In this document: positions 9,607-17,700 of the stretch, piece by piece
Position numbering within the stretch: position 1 is the first letter of the stretch
Layout: every line of letters starts with the position of its first letter
Notes under the pieces: model-generated
The model's database searches: none
What the model was told of the DNA's origin: nothing
Seen by the model: the letters and a program-made list of their open reading frames with translations, nothing else
DNA from: Microcaldota archaeon
GTDB lineage: Archaea > Micrarchaeota > Micrarchaeia > Micrarchaeales > CABMGC01
Assembly: GCA_021852055.1 (NCBI GenBank)
Contig: JAJZOD010000006.1
Coordinates: 1-58,944, forward strand
Reading direction: 5' to 3'
DNA length: 58,944 nucleotides
Made by a program: the position numbers and the translations under genes

Positions 9607-10944
9607 TCAATGCAACATATCTTCCGGTTGAATCCTGCGCTGTGCTGCCGACAGCTCTAACAGCCTTCTAGCAATCTTAATTATAGCTTCAGCTCTCGAA
9701 GGCTCATCTTTCAAGACATCTCTAATATGTGCCTCATTCTTCATAACTTCCGGTGCAGCACTGCGGTGCTTTTGTATAGCATATTCAGCAAGGTAAGACA
9801 TGTTGCTGCACAGCAAAGTGTAACACCACGGCTTTCCGTACAATGCAGCGGCAAATTTTCTATTGTGATCTACGGCCTCCTCACCAACAATCCGGCCATC
9901 CTGGTCTGATATAGACAACAGCTGCAAGCCTTCTTTGGAATCGAGGTTAAGCAGTTCCAGTGCAGCAACACTATTATATTTAACAATTTCATGAAGAAGT
10001 GTTCTGCCGTTGTCATCCACTTTCATATCAAGACCTATCCGTTTGTGCACCAGAAACGTGGAGTAAAGGTCATCACGCAAGTTTTCTCGGAGCGTATTCA
10101 GTTCTCCTTTTTCTATAAGTAACTCTATCTCCTCCTCAATCTCTAAAATCGGATCTGCTTTAAAAGTTCCAGCACTTCCAACACTTTTGCCTGTTAAAGG
10201 AGCTGCAGGTTTTTCTGCATGCTCATTTGATGGTATCTTACGCAAAGTTACTTCATTTCCAGACGTGCTTTGCTTTTTGATAGGAGCACTTGTGCCGGCA
10301 TCATGGTGATCTGGTTCCCCTCCTTTTTGTTCCTCTCCCTTTAATGCCGCTGCAAGTTCCACCTTCTCCAAGCTGTCTGCTTCATCATTTCCTACGCTTT
10401 CTGCTTCTCCGTTATCCTTCTGCACTTCTATTTTATGCATTGATTCTCTAATGATTCTTATGGTTTCTGCATAAGCTTTGACGCTGTCCTCTTTTGTGTG
10501 AAGTATAAAATCAAGTATGCTCTCTTCATTGCCGTTGCGGACCCTCTTCGGTGAAAGCATCATCAAAACAGTATTCCTATCTTCTATTTCGAATATTGTA
10601 GGTATAAGATCTGGGTGCTTGATTACAACAGTATGGCCTACGCTCCAGCCCTGCAAATCCGTCTTGCTCCATATTTCCAGGGCTCTTTTACTGACTTCGG
10701 GGTCTGCGCTTTTGCATGTATTTATAAGTTCAACTGCGCAATTCCTATGCTCAACGAGCCTGTGTGCTAATGTGTCTCCAGTGCTTGAATCATATACGCG
10801 CAGTGCGTATTCCGGCGTATCGATTATCCATCTGGCAGTTTCATTATCTCTTATGAGAACAAGAATTTCTCTTGCAGACCTGTTTTCAATTGCTTTGTTC
10901 AGCCTCTGTTTAACATCTGTTGTAATCATTGCTTTCCTTATCAT
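9607..10944 (-). CDS. Ankyrin-like repeat protein, function unknown
   Basis: 445-aa cytoplasmic protein not assigned to a named family. Two segments look like ankyrin-type units: STGDTLAHRLVEHRN near the N-terminus and DNGRTLLHEIVKYN near residue 320. They are separated by a hydrophilic, Glu/Lys/Ser-rich linker of about 100 residues that is probably disordered. A longer frame reaches 11109, but the ATG at 10944 lies at the right distance from a TATAAAAA-type box at 10962-10969, and the extra 55 residues look non-coding. Possibly a protein-interaction scaffold; nothing in its neighbours clarifies this. Confidence 0.6.
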   Translation of the reverse strand: MIRKAMITTDVKQRLNKAIENRSAREILVLIRDNETARWIIDTPEYALRVYDSSTGDTLAHRLVEHRNCAVELINTCKSADPEVSKRALEIWSKTDLQGWSVGHTVVIKHPDLIPTIFEIEDRNTVLMMLSPKRVRNGNEESILDFILHTKEDSVKAYAETIRIIRESMHKIEVQKDNGEAESVGNDEADSLEKVELAAALKGEEQKGGEPDHHDAGTSAPIKKQSTSGNEVTLRKIPSNEHAEKPAAPLTGKSVGSAGTFKADPILEIEEEIELLIEKGELNTLRENLRDDLYSTFLVHKRIGLDMKVDDNGRTLLHEIVKYNSVAALELLNLDSKEGLQLLSISDQDGRIVGEEAVDHNRKFAAALYGKPWCYTLLCSNMSYLAEYAIQKHRSAAPEVMKNEAHIRDVLKDEPSRAEAIIKIARRLLELSAAQRRIQPEDMLH

Positions 10945-11123
10945 AAAATCCACATGTAAAGTTATAAAAATTATAACTATTCTGGCTCTAATTTGATATT
11001 TAAATCTACCGTTGTGAATGATATAACTGCTGCATTTACCTTCTCCACCATCTGGCAATCTTGCGCAAGACACTGCATTATGGCCGTAAGAAATCAGGGA
11101 GCTATGCAATAATAAATTAATGC

Positions 11124-12739: not shown

Positions 12740-13327
12740 TTAGACCTGGAAGCTTAATAACGCTTCTGTTGGGATTAGGGATGCAACGCTTTTCACCACA
12801 TCAGGTTTCAAGTGCCGCACGAACCAACTCAATTTCATTGCAAGTTGTTTTCCATCTGCAAATTCGTGATTGTTCAGAAATTTCCGCCGGTCGTGACACC
12901 AAACCAGTTCCTGCGGATTCAAATCCGGGGAATAAGGCGGCATCCACCTGAGCTTCACTTTTGGGTGCAATGACAACCAAAGTTTTACAAGTTTCGACTT
13001 ATGGACCGGTCCGTTGTCTAGATAGACCCAGATTTCCCGTTTGTTCCGATAAGTATTCGCCACTTTCTCCAGAAACCTTACCATGGCAGGTGCCTTTGCG
13101 ACTTTTGTGGCCAGTTGTATGCGCCTGCCACTCAGAGGATTCGTAGCACCGAAAACGTTCAGCCTCTCCTTGTGCGACTGCTTTGCCTTCACGATGAGCC
13201 TCTGGTTGAACGTCCACCCATAACTCTTGTGTGGCGACGTGCCTGCGCCATAGTGAACTACGATTTGATGTCGCCAAAAGGAAACAGGTTTAATGCAGAT
13301 GTAGCTGAAGTCTGGAAAGCTAGAGAA
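12740..13327 (-). pseudogene. IS630-family transposase remnant
   Basis: The C-terminal part of an IS630/Tc1-like DDE transposase. VYLDNGPVHKSK carries the second catalytic Asp, and WMPPYSPDLNPQELVW the third acidic residue. The open frame extends upstream of the GTG at 13192 without a stop to about 13327 (GWTFNQRLIVKAKQSHKERL in the conserved core), where an in-frame TAA ends it. The N-terminal helix-turn-helix and first catalytic Asp cannot be found, so the copy is 5'-truncated and presumably inactive. I could not find terminal inverted repeats. It lies between a metabolic gene and a toxin-antitoxin pair. Confidence 0.8.
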
Positions 13328-13476: not shown

Positions 13477-13791
13477 CTAACCTTTCAACGATCTGAGTTT
13501 CTTAACGAATTCCTCAAAAACAAGGTGTTTCTTCTCGGGACTTAATTGAAAGACAGTTTTTATTATTGCACCGTCTGTGATTGTGAATATATAATTCAAC
13601 TTTATCACACTGTCTTGGGCTGCTCCCTCATTTGTAGATATGCGTATCCCTTTCATCTGGAGGTTTGTAGTTATCCCTGCTATGATTATGTTTCCTAGCT
13701 CCTCAAATAGCACCAATGCAGGTCTGATCTTTGAGCCTTCGCTATCTTCAAATTGTACCCTTGTTATTACCACATCTCCAGCTTTAGGCAT
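13477..13791 (-). CDS. MazF/PemK-like toxin
   Basis: 104-aa protein with the PemK/MazF endoribonuclease fold. It starts GDVVITRVQFEDSEGSKIRPALVL, in which the R-P-A-L-V segment is the family hallmark, followed by a strand/helix pattern ending in FVKKLRSLKG. Such toxins cleave RNA and are neutralised by the cognate antitoxin. The gene overlaps the antitoxin gene upstream by eight bases, the usual coupled arrangement. Location beside an IS remnant and a tRNA gene is typical of mobile accessory DNA. Confidence 0.85.
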   Translation of the reverse strand: MPKAGDVVITRVQFEDSEGSKIRPALVLFEELGNIIIAGITTNLQMKGIRISTNEGAAQDSVIKLNYIFTITDGAIIKTVFQLSPEKKHLVFEEFVKKLRSLKG

Positions 13792-14005
13792 GCTCCCATG
13801 CCGAGTAATCGCCTTCTCCCCATAGCTCCTTCATCTTGGTTTTTTGGGATTCCTGAACAAACTTATCGAATTCTTTCATCTCATTGGCGCTTTCTATAAG
13901 ACCCAATATTATCTCGCTATAAGTCTCCCTGGGGTATTTCTTGATTTGTTTTAGTGCCTTAACAACTAACTTGCTTAGTTGTATGGTCGTTACTTCCTCA
14001 GACAT
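13784..14005 (-). CDS. Antitoxin of the MazF-like pair
   Basis: 73-aa protein starting MSEEVTTIQLSKLVVKALKQ, which resembles a ribbon-helix-helix DNA-binding N-terminus (VapB-type archaeal antitoxins). A charged C-terminal tail ending GEGDYSAWEHA probably wraps the toxin. A GGTG ribosome site seven bases before the ATG supports this start rather than the longer frame to 14035. It should repress its own operon through the dyad at 14017-14041. Confidence 0.78.
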   Translation of the reverse strand: MSEEVTTIQLSKLVVKALKQIKKYPRETYSEIILGLIESANEMKEFDKFVQESQKTKMKELWGEGDYSAWEHA

Positions 14006-14016
14006 TATATAACACC

Positions 14017-14041
14017 TATAGTTAGTATATAACATACTATA
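14017..14041 (-). promoter_or_regulatory. Dyad operator in the toxin-antitoxin promoter
   Basis: The arms TATAGT (14017-14022) and ACTATA (14036-14041) are inverted, and a second inner pair AGTAT/ATACT overlaps them. The dyad lies between a TTTAAATATA-type TATA box and the antitoxin start codon, the position expected for autorepression by a ribbon-helix-helix dimer. Seen directly; the regulator is inferred. Confidence 0.5.
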
Positions 14042-14151: not shown

Positions 14152-14259
14152 AGCCCTGAGAGGGAATCGGACCCTCGACCTCTTGTTTTCCGGTATTCTT
14201 GATTAAACTTCATTCAAGAAGTTTACAAGACAAGCGCTCTACCACTGAGCTACCAGGGC
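14152..14259 (-). tRNA. tRNA-Thr(UGU) with a 36-nt intron
   Basis: On the minus strand: acceptor GCCCTGG/TCAGGGC (one G-U pair) with U73, D-arm GCTC...GAGC, anticodon stem CTTGT/ACAAG, T-arm GAGGG TCCGATT CCCTC. Removing 36 nt after position 37 restores the loop CUUGUAA with anticodon UGU. The intron contains a perfect seven-bp hairpin AAACTTC/GAAGTTT. The bulge-helix-bulge around the splice sites is irregular, so the exact junction is less sure than for the Gly and Phe tRNAs. A TTTTTATAG box lies about 26 nt upstream. Confidence 0.85.
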
Positions 14260-14303: not shown

Positions 14304-14771
14304 TCAGGTGCTAATCTGGCTCCTGTCCATAACGAATGCTTTATGGCGTTTCGGTCTCAATTTGCTCACAATGTAATCAAACGCCTTGCCGGGTTCTGTC
14401 TCTCCGCCGAACGTAAAGATGTCAAAGGTTACGTAGTTGTCAGTATGCCATGCGTGCAGTGCAGCATGCCCTGTATCCATAAGCGCTATAACTGAAATGC
14501 CGCCTTTTCTGCCGCCTATCTCAACGCTCTTCATGTCCATGAGCTTTGTGCCTGAAATGCCGATGCACTCCTCTATTACCTTTTTCAGATAGTCAACGTC
14601 ATCTATGGCATTCTTATCTACATTATACATGTCGCCGAACACATGCTTGCCTATGAGGTTATCATTCTCTATAACCTTTACGCTATCCATGTTCCTTAAG
14701 ATGTCGTCGCTTTTTATCCTTGCCTGCTCTTTAAAAAGCAGCGGATCCTTCTTTTTTGTAAATATAGCCAT
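14304..14771 (-). CDS. SpeD-like (AdoMet decarboxylase fold) protein lacking the pyruvoyl serine
   Basis: 155-aa protein with the overall pattern of prokaryotic S-adenosylmethionine decarboxylase: GKHVFGDMY (41-49), SGTKLMDM (73-80), a strand region at 92-119 and KAFDYIVSKLRP (129-140). In SpeD the chain self-cleaves before a serine in ESHxSxH to form the pyruvoyl cofactor. Here the matching residues are T100-G101-H102, so the serine is a glycine, and the catalytic cysteine of DVFTCG is F121. The later histidine (H106) is kept. It is therefore unlikely to be a working AdoMet decarboxylase, and its role is unknown. The ATG at 14771 is about 30 nt after a TTTTTATACT box. Confidence 0.75.
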   Translation of the reverse strand: MAIFTKKKDPLLFKEQARIKSDDILRNMDSVKVIENDNLIGKHVFGDMYNVDKNAIDDVDYLKKVIEECIGISGTKLMDMKSVEIGGRKGGISVIALMDTGHAALHAWHTDNYVTFDIFTFGGETEPGKAFDYIVSKLRPKRHKAFVMDRSQIST

Positions 14772-14982: not shown

Positions 14983-17700
14983 GTGCAACCTCTAACAAAC
15001 AAACACCGTGATTCTGTGCTTGAAGGCATAAAACTTGACAAGAAGGAGTTAAGGAGGGAATTCTCAAAGGATTATAAGTCCTACTACCTCACAAAGGTCT
15101 TCGCCGAAGAGGGATTTGAGCGTTATAAATGCAGGATATGCGGCAAGAACTTCTGGAGTGCTACTAAAAGGGACACATGCGACGATCCCGAGCATACGGA
15201 GTACTCGTTTTTCAAGGACAAGCCAAATCCGATAGGCTATGTGGACTTCTGGAAGAAGTTCTCAAAATTTTTCGAGGAGAACGGCCATGCCTCAATAAAC
15301 AAGTATCCGGTTGTCAGCAGATGGCGCCAGGATCTTTACTTTACAATAGCTTCGATACAGGATTTCCAGCGCATAGAGAACGGAGCAATGAACTTTGAAT
15401 ATTCGTCGAATCCTCTTATAGTTCCGCAGATGTGCCTCCGCTTCGGCGACATCGAGAACGTCGGAGTTACCGGAAGGCACCTGACAAGCTTCATGATGGC
15501 CGGGCAGCATGCCTTCAATTATCCAAAAGAGGGCTACTGGCGCGACCGCACCATAGAGCTTAATTACAAGTTCCTTACAAAAGAGCTCGGTGTAAGGAAG
15601 GACACGCTTACGTATAATGAAGATGTATGGGCCATGGGCGATTTCTCCGAGTTCGGTCCATGCCTGGAAAGCTTTTCAGGAGGTGCAGAACTAGTCAACA
15701 GCGTTTTCACGCAGTTCGAGAGCATAAACGGCGAGATAAAAGAGCTCAAGGCGCAGGTCGTTGATGTAGGCTGGGGTTTTGAGAGGCTCATGTGGTTTTA
15801 TACAGGATATGACAATGTCTACGAGGCAGTTTTCCACGACATAATAATGCGTACAAAGAAGAGCCTTCCGTTCGAGATGGACGATGCTCTCTTCAGAAAG
15901 TTTGCGAGGTACGCCAGCGAGCTCGATGTGACTGAGGTAAAAGGTTTCAAGGAGAAGGAGCGTGAGCTGCTGAAAAAAGCAGGCATACCGGAGAAGGAGT
16001 ACGTCAGCAGGGTGAAACCGATGCAGGCTTATTACGCCATACTGGATCATGTCCGCACACTGCTCTTTGCAGTTTCCGACGGTGCGCTTCCATCCAACAT
16101 AGGCGGCGGCTACAATCTGCGTGTCATATTGAGAAGGGCACTTGGTTTCGTAAGCGAGTACGACATGGGCATTGATCTTATGGGCATAGCCGAAAGGCAT
16201 GCAAAAGAGCTTAAAGGCCTGTACCCTGATCTGGAAGAGAACATACCCCTGCTTTCGAAGGTGGTAGACATAGAGGCAAAAAGGTACGCAAAAAGCACAG
16301 AGAATGCAAGCAGGATAATAAATGCCATCCTACACAAGGGCAAGCCACTCGGAAAGCCAGAGCTGCGCACACTTTACGAGAGCAATGGTGTTACTCCGGA
16401 GCTTATATCTGCAGTTGCACGCAAGGAAGGCGTCAGCATCGAATTGCCTGATGGCGCATACGAAGACATAATCAAAGGCGATTTCGCTGCAAAGGAGAAG
16501 GCAAAGAAGCTGCAGATAGATTTCAAGGAAGAGCTCCCAAAAACGGAACAGTTGTACTATCAGTTCAAATCAGATGCTGATGCAAAGGTTCTCTGGTCAC
16601 AGGGAAGGCATGTCGTACTTGACAAGACCCCTTTTTATCCTGAAGGCGGAGGCCAGGCGGCTGACAGGGGCACCATAAACGGCCTCGAAGTAGAAGACGT
16701 GCAGAAGGTCGGCAATGTAATAGTGCATGTAATGAAAGATAGCGCAGATGCACAGCTCAAAAAAGGCAAGGCAGCATCGTGCAGTGTCGACATGGATAGG
16801 CGCAACAGGCTGATGGCGCACCATACTGCGACCCATCTTATAAGTGCAGCATCACGAGCCGTGCTCGGAAAGCATGCATGGCAGGAAGGCGCAAGGAAGG
16901 ACGCTGACAAGGCTCACATAGACATAGCGCATTATGACAAGCTCAGCGATTCTGATGTAGACGCCATAGAGAACTGGGCAAACAACGCTGTATTCAACGG
17001 CATAAAAGTAGAGGTCAACGAGATGGCACGCGGCGAAGCTGAAGACAAATACGGCTTCACAATATATCAGGGCCATGGTGTACCAGCTAAAAAGATGCGT
17101 ATAGTTGTAATATCGGACAAGCACGGAAAACTGATTGATGCGGAGGCGTGCGGCGGCATGCACCTGGCAGGCAGGGAAAGCCTGGTAGGCATGATAAAAA
17201 TAATAAATACCGCAAGGATCTCCGACGGCGTAGACAGGATAGAGTTCGTTGCAGGCAAATCGGCTCTCGAGTACTTCCAGAAAGAGCACACAGAACTCGG
17301 GCTGGCGGCCGGGATTGCCAATTCGGAAAGATTTGAAATACGCTCAAGAATAGAGAAGATGCGCAGCGATTATGCCGCAGTAAACAAGAAGCTCCAGGAG
17401 CGCGATTCAGAATTAGGCAATGCCATAGGCAGGGATATATTATTAGGGTTAAAAGGCAGGGAGCTTGAAGCTGCAATCGAGAGGGACGAGAATCGCGAGG
17501 TGCTCAGGAAGGCTCTTGCCTACGCTGTTTCTTATAATCCAAAACTAATAGTGCTTGCGAAGAACAAGGCCGGCGAAGTGGTGTGCATGTCCGGGAAAGA
17601 GTCAAAGCACAGTGCAATAGAGTTTGCAAAGAAGAAGTTCGGAAGCGCATTCAACGGCGGAGGCTCAAAGGAAATTGCCGAGGGCGTAATAAAATTGTGA
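14983..17700 (+). CDS. alaS: Alanyl-tRNA synthetase, archaeal type
   Basis: 905-aa enzyme that charges tRNA-Ala and deacylates mischarged tRNA. The N-terminal zinc ribbon (CRICG, then C and H in DTCDDPEHTEY) is characteristic of archaeal AlaRS. The class II core has RWRQDLYFTIASIQDF and MCLRFGDIENVGVTGRH. The editing domain has GGGQAADRG, HHTATHLI and CGGMHLAG; a C-terminal dimerisation region ends the protein. The start is a GTG about 15-20 nt after an A/T-rich TATA-like element. It is divergent from the SpeD-like gene, and carS follows. Confidence 0.97.
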   Translation: MQPLTNKHRDSVLEGIKLDKKELRREFSKDYKSYYLTKVFAEEGFERYKCRICGKNFWSATKRDTCDDPEHTEYSFFKDKPNPIGYVDFWKKFSKFFEENGHASINKYPVVSRWRQDLYFTIASIQDFQRIENGAMNFEYSSNPLIVPQMCLRFGDIENVGVTGRHLTSFMMAGQHAFNYPKEGYWRDRTIELNYKFLTKELGVRKDTLTYNEDVWAMGDFSEFGPCLESFSGGAELVNSVFTQFESINGEIKELKAQVVDVGWGFERLMWFYTGYDNVYEAVFHDIIMRTKKSLPFEMDDALFRKFARYASELDVTEVKGFKEKERELLKKAGIPEKEYVSRVKPMQAYYAILDHVRTLLFAVSDGALPSNIGGGYNLRVILRRALGFVSEYDMGIDLMGIAERHAKELKGLYPDLEENIPLLSKVVDIEAKRYAKSTENASRIINAILHKGKPLGKPELRTLYESNGVTPELISAVARKEGVSIELPDGAYEDIIKGDFAAKEKAKKLQIDFKEELPKTEQLYYQFKSDADAKVLWSQGRHVVLDKTPFYPEGGGQAADRGTINGLEVEDVQKVGNVIVHVMKDSADAQLKKGKAASCSVDMDRRNRLMAHHTATHLISAASRAVLGKHAWQEGARKDADKAHIDIAHYDKLSDSDVDAIENWANNAVFNGIKVEVNEMARGEAEDKYGFTIYQGHGVPAKKMRIVVISDKHGKLIDAEACGGMHLAGRESLVGMIKIINTARISDGVDRIEFVAGKSALEYFQKEHTELGLAAGIANSERFEIRSRIEKMRSDYAAVNKKLQERDSELGNAIGRDILLGLKGRELEAAIERDENREVLRKALAYAVSYNPKLIVLAKNKAGEVVCMSGKESKHSAIEFAKKKFGSAFNGGGSKEIAEGVIKL

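Follow-up and report, generated by a model that had tools for sequence, protein, structure and literature searches.

Background

The closest described system is the class 1b AdoMetDC, or SpeD, of which T. maritima TM0655 is the example used here, with Ser63, His68 and Cys83 as the residues of self-processing and catalysis (PMC10407285). The authors of that study expected the three residues to be conserved in AdoMetDC as well as in the arginine and ornithine decarboxylases derived from SpeD, marked them in all of their logos, and linked the loss of a proline to arginine decarboxylases rather than to AdoMetDC (PMC10407285). In the literature searched, the known dead relatives of AdoMetDC are either paralogues in trypanosomes or one half of a fusion protein.

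The protein studied here, P0001, is encoded in a stretch of 58,944 nucleotides, called the window, from a genome of about 1.02 Mb (G000) belonging to a Candidatus Micrarchaeota lineage. It is a SpeD relative that lacks the self-cleaving serine. We compared it with its relatives in the same genus, in the phylum and among solved structures; genomes are designated by G numbers, and residue positions follow the T. maritima enzyme unless stated otherwise.

Results

Gene and predicted fold

P0001 is an open reading frame of 155 amino acids on the minus strand, whose coordinates had been correctly given by a first, sequence-only reading of the window (Table 1). It begins with an ATG at 14771 and ends with a stop codon at 14304-14306, and this start agrees with the MxIF/MxIL N-terminus of the relatives. 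Its score is 88.9 bits for the AdoMet_dc family PF02675, against a cut-off of 25, and 87.6 bits for TIGR03330, the NCBI equivalog model for adenosylmethionine decarboxylase, against a cut-off of 75.65. The latter model thus admits the protein despite the missing catalytic serine, and would name it adenosylmethionine decarboxylase.

In the AlphaFold (AF2) model, the core formed by residues 40-150 has a pLDDT of about 98, and the first 30 residues or so are of low confidence. The top Foldseek matches of the model are 1vr7, 1tmi and 1tlu, T. maritima SpeD coming first, with rmsd values of 1.3-1.6 A; for 1vr7 the rmsd is 1.3 A and the TM score, by target length, 0.88. The solved relatives also include the SpeD of A. 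aeolicus (2iii). Judged by its sequence and its predicted structure, P0001 is clearly an AdoMet_dc/SpeD homologue with the SpeD fold, and the earlier claim of such a fold without the self-cleaving serine is borne out by the two family scores, the AF2 model, the Foldseek matches, and the alignment to 1vr7/1tlu and 2iii. A divergent form found in two related species, with threonine at the Cys83 position (G/H/T), is predicted to fold well too, its core having a pLDDT of 91-98.

Table 1. Features of the locus, in coordinates of the window
Feature	Position	Strand	Evidence or conservation
Ser-less SpeD/AdoMet_dc protein P0001	14304..14771	-	PF02675 and TIGR03330 scores, AF2, Foldseek
Gly101 codon (GGG), aligned with pyruvoyl-forming Ser63	14469..14471	-	Gly in 6/6 of the clade, Ser in 45/45 intact relatives
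Phe121 codon (TTC), aligned with catalytic Cys83	14409..14411	-	Phe (n=4) or Thr (n=2) in the clade, Cys in 45/45 intact relatives
Thr110 codon, aligned with Glu72	14442..14444	-	T/N/V/S in the clade, Glu in 45/45 intact relatives
Ile85 codon, aligned with Phe49	14517..14519	-	I/M/Q in the clade, Phe in 44/45 intact relatives
His106 codon, retained His68	14454..14456	-	Unchanged in intact and Ser-less proteins alike
tRNA-Thr(UGU) with an intron, immediately downstream of the P0001 gene; synteny marker of the SpeD orthologues	14152..14259	-	Rfam tRNA match
alaS, neighbour in divergent orientation throughout the Phe subgroup (G000, G004, G005, G006)	14983..17700	+	

Losses in the active site

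Aligned to the SpeD proteins of T. maritima (1vr7/1tlu) and A. aeolicus (2iii), P0001 has Gly101 and Phe121 at the serine and cysteine positions, and keeps the histidine and the fold motifs, as the sequence-only reading had proposed. Since glycine is found at the same position in five other genomes of the genus, the replacement of the serine is neither chance nor a sequencing slip; at the Cys83 position these five have Phe (n=3) or Thr (n=2). Written as the residues at the Ser63, His68 and Cys83 positions, the Ser-less proteins of this one genus, from six species, are G/H/F in four cases and G/H/T in two.

The six proteins were compared with 45 intact relatives over 18 near-invariant columns. 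Exactly four of these positions are lost in all six, namely Phe49, Ser63, Glu72 and Cys83, and ten are retained by every one of the six: H7, H64, H68, W70, Y75, D79, G84, P89, P140 and R150, the last two in P0001 numbering. The clade has acquired glycine throughout at the position of Glu85, beside the lost Cys83, as well as at that of Ser63. In the enzymes of T. maritima and of humans, we take Phe49 and Glu72 to contact the substrate and to be contributed by one protomer, Ser63 and Cys83 by its partner; with all four lost, both half-sites would be gone. No conserved nucleophile, serine included, offers an alternative at the junction, where the residue preceding the glycine is T, A, A, S, E and E in the six proteins. 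The replacement of Ser63 by Gly and of Cys83 by Phe or Thr in every member supports the earlier prediction that such a protein could not make the pyruvoyl cofactor.

A single origin in one genus

All seven genomes of the genus have a speD orthologue, which is Ser-less in six of them (G000 and G002 to G006) and intact in G001. To place these sequences in the phylum, 151 distinct AdoMet_dc domains were read from a search of 301 genomes, the weakest matches being excluded. The Ser/His/Cys triad is present in 141 of the 151, only the six domains of this genus have a residue other than serine at the Ser63 position, and another entry, a truncated remnant, lacks the site altogether. A profile made from the seven proteins of the genus scores them above everything else in 164 genomes of the order. 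A search of contigs with P0001 alone gave no relatives; the same search with the alignment gave seven loci. A search for Ser-less viral forms found no relatives in IMG/VR, and the phage SpeDs listed are just 23-29% identical.

Other variants came to light in these searches. Two AdoMet_dc proteins (L051, 5983-6333 in G069, and L052, 5445-5807 in G076) have the Ser and the Cys, but Gly or Tyr at the His68 position, and a Micrarchaeota gene (L044, 6051-6896 in G011) encodes a SpeD-SpeD fusion of 282 amino acids with Ser/His/Cys in both halves.

In a tree built on 121 columns, whose deep forks are weak, the six Ser-less proteins form a single clade (support 99/86), the intact protein of G001 is its sister (100/96), and the whole is nested within a well-supported clade of intact SpeDs. 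A long branch, of length 1.06, leads to the Thr subgroup. Many intact relatives are arranged head-to-head with a Hel308-like helicase gene, often with SepF beyond it, and these neighbours are retained by the Ser-less genes of G002 and G003; in the Phe subgroup, alaS replaces the helicase. A tRNA gene was found by Rfam just downstream, on the same strand, at all six Ser-less loci and at some intact ones. At the Ser-less loci it is a tRNA-Thr(UGU), often intron-bearing, the anticodon of intron-bearing copies having been read by alignment to intron-less copies, since ARAGORN called some of them Ser. A default ARAGORN run over the whole window gave zero tRNAs; the tRNA-Thr at 14152-14259 comes from Rfam.

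Because tree and gene order agree, the Ser-less genes are orthologues of the ancestral SpeD that changed in place, and not added copies. The glycine form arose once, within one lineage of the genus. No operon partner that would point to a function is conserved, the neighbour having shifted from helicase to alaS between the subgroups.

Some observations concern the surroundings of these loci. In G003, about 3.3 kb from the main gene, a truncated SpeD C-terminus of 33 residues lies with a second tRNA-Thr (L036, 5585-5864) whose intron matches that of G001, unlike that of G003's own copy; the arrangement looks like an insertion or recombination at the speD-tRNA-Thr pair, and this remnant was not retained as a real second copy of the gene. 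In the window, the tRNA gene is adjoined by a PemK/MazF-like toxin gene (13477-14035, minus strand), with an overlapping upstream ORF that is weakly VapB-antitoxin-like. Further along are a DDE_3 transposase fragment (12740-13192, minus strand) and a gene for a protein of 500 amino acids with only a sub-threshold ankyrin-repeat match (9607-11109, minus strand).

Constraint on the Ser-less protein

The pairwise dN/dS ratio is 0.11 between G004 and G005 (p 4e-16) and 0.115 between G002 and G003 (p 8e-5). All six Ser-less reading frames are full length, and they contain no stops with synonymous changes near saturation between species. With a ratio of about 0.11, the gene is not a pseudogene. For close intact pairs the ratio is 0.02-0.05, that is, 2-5 times lower than for the Ser-less pairs: the Ser-less protein is constrained, but less than the intact enzyme, and this difference, together with the long branch of the Thr subgroup, indicates that part of the protein is relaxed.

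Polyamine genes and a second SpeD

Genes of polyamine metabolism were checked genome-wide, family by family. At the position of Pro71, which we take to be the proline whose loss is tied to arginine decarboxylases (PMC10407285), the intact sister clade carries Asn, Lys or Arg. Spermine_synth matches in the genus are weak, that of G000 scoring 42.9 bits to TIGR00417 (speE) against a cut-off of 249.6; strong spermidine synthase genes exist elsewhere in the family (G014, G022) and none was found in this genus. Since Pro71 is replaced in the intact sisters and the genus has no strong spermidine synthase, the ancestral enzyme may have been an arginine decarboxylase.

An agmatinase-family gene is present in seven of the nine genomes with an intact relative of the clade, versus two of the six Ser-less genomes. 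One of these two, in G000, sits in a radical SAM cluster, and we do not count on it as a polyamine gene. The cluster itself (L196, contig 11, 235-5286) has three radical SAM genes, two of them with SPASM, around the arginase-family gene; it is a candidate for the modification of peptides, in which the arginase-family product would act as a peptide arginase. Among the genomes tested, only one is without deoxyhypusine synthase. PvlArgDC (PF01862) and TiaS (PF08489), sought as linked functions, were found in none of the genomes tested from this group. A PLP decarboxylase was considered as a replacement and rejected, the PF02784 genes of G000, G001 and G031 being LysA (TIGR01048, above cut-off); those of G000, G001 and G003 adjoin lysine-pathway genes. 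The pattern fits the loss of a local route, with polyamines perhaps obtained externally and the protein, once released from its role there, retained for a different one.

On contig 3 of the window's genome lies a second SpeD (G000:C3:41961-42296; L002, 1459-1896), with Ser/His/Cys intact, placed by the tree in a distant group. This group, of which nine members were seen in the order, has the motif ADSSIVIHT...YSC and is without Trp70 and Glu72. An intact second copy, for which the sequence-only reading had suggested looking, is thus present in G000 as a distant homologue on another contig, but absent from the five sister species: none was found in G002 to G006, of respective completeness 91, 90, 58, 81 and 59%, and the chance of missing it in all five, computed from these values, is about 0.0003.

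Discussion

The explanation that we favour, and hold to be fairly probable, is that the Ser-less SpeD is an uncleaved, non-catalytic pseudoenzyme, orthologue of an ancestral pyruvoyl-dependent decarboxylase of the SpeD type in Micrarchaeota, acting through its folded body. In one lineage of the genus, glycine took the place of the self-cleaving serine, and the active site was dismantled both where it serves the cofactor (Ser63, Cys83) and where it serves the substrate (Phe49, Glu72), with the folding core kept. The chain would stay uncut, without a pyruvoyl group, and we would expect it to decarboxylate neither AdoMet, arginine nor ornithine. Its body, probably homodimeric, may be a scaffold or a regulator that binds either another protein as its partner or, in a remodelled pocket, a different ligand. 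A scaffold or regulator is the most likely function, reached by elimination, which is weaker than demonstration.

What has to be eliminated can be read from the same data. It is unlikely, for instance, that the reading frame is the fading, functionless remnant of a decarboxylase that became dispensable, polyamines coming perhaps from a host. The weak Spermine_synth matches, the scarcity of agmatinase-family genes in Ser-less genomes, a dN/dS above that of intact pairs, the many genomes of the family without any SpeD and the 33-residue remnant in G003 would all suit such a slow decay; yet the six frames are full length and under purifying selection, no stop has appeared in the time that brought synonymous sites near saturation, and the changes are confined to the active site of a preserved core. 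A non-catalytic sensor or sink, whose old pocket would still take up the ancestral substrate (AdoMet or arginine/agmatine), is, to us, a shade less plausible than decay: Trp70, His68 and the fold are kept, and other pseudo-domains of the AdoMetDC fold have kept a structural role, but the near-universal Phe49 and Glu72 are lost in every Ser-less protein.

The sequence-only reading left the choice between a pseudoenzyme and an enzyme with new chemistry. The former is favoured by the loss of Phe49 and Glu72 throughout the clade, the retention of fold residues and the purifying selection; the latter found no positive support. A pyruvoyl-independent chemistry could be imagined around the retained His64, His68, Trp70 and Asp79 and the two new, clade-specific invariant glycines, but what replaces Cys83 and Glu72 varies among the six, unlike a conserved new site, and there is no operon context; we consider it quite improbable. 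Slightly more doubtful still is a prozyme-like activator that, like that of trypanosomes (PMC5201418), forms heterodimers with an active SpeD. The intact second homologue of G000 invites the comparison, but it belongs to a distant group, and a mixed dimer would complete neither site when both half-sites are dismantled; since G002 to G006 have no second SpeD, with so small a chance of having missed it, a conserved partnership of this type is unlikely. Finally, cleavage at another residue, with the cofactor still made, could be sought at Thr100, before Gly101 in P0001, or at the serine that precedes the glycine in G004, but this residue varies and Cys83 is gone too, and we give the idea hardly any credence.

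With the pseudoenzyme as the preferred explanation, the Ser-less protein probably does a different, non-enzymatic job, since key active-site residues are lost and yet selection maintains it in six species. In this genus it is the orthologue of the enzyme itself that turned into the dead form, once and at a defined position of the tree, and the intact sister G001 persists. The Ser-less clade and G001 thus form a natural before/after pair for what an enzyme fold does after losing its chemistry. They also call for caution: TIGR03330 names these proteins adenosylmethionine decarboxylase, and polyamine pathways of DPANN inferred from model matches can be wrong.

The N-terminal AdoMetDC-like domain of spermine synthase serves dimerisation. 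The human domain (3c6k), matched by structure search, has the AdoMetDC fold in common with the Ser-less SpeD; it is part of an aminopropyltransferase, whereas the Ser-less SpeD is a separate protein. With class 1b SpeD, the Ser-less clade shares fold and family, His68 and the folding core, as a direct orthologue of an intact SpeD-type protein; it differs by the loss of Ser63, Cys83, Phe49 and Glu72, and with them of the self-processing and catalytic features. The decarboxylase derivatives SpeDA and SpeDC keep Ser/His/Cys (PMC10407285), and the Ser-less clade does not.

Closer in kind is the AdoMetDC prozyme of trypanosomes (PMC5201418; 5tvm, 5tvf), which has the AdoMetDC fold, is uncleaved, and has neither the pyruvoyl group nor certain other residues of the active site, a likeness that the Ser-less sequences suggest. 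The prozyme, a eukaryotic paralogue of class 2, activates an AdoMetDC present alongside it, whereas five of the six genomes here show no active copy. The degraded C-terminal SpeD domains of fusions in Lentisphaerota and Desulfobacteria, and the C-terminal half of eukaryotic AdoMetDC, are likewise without self-cleavage site or critical residues; they are fused to an active domain (PMC10407285), and the Ser-less SpeD of Micrarchaeota stands alone. A stand-alone, orthologous dead SpeD of prokaryotes is not described in the literature searched, which leaves most subscription journals outside its scope. Dead AdoMetDC paralogues were already known; what is new here is a dead SpeD that is prokaryotic, stands alone and replaces the enzyme.
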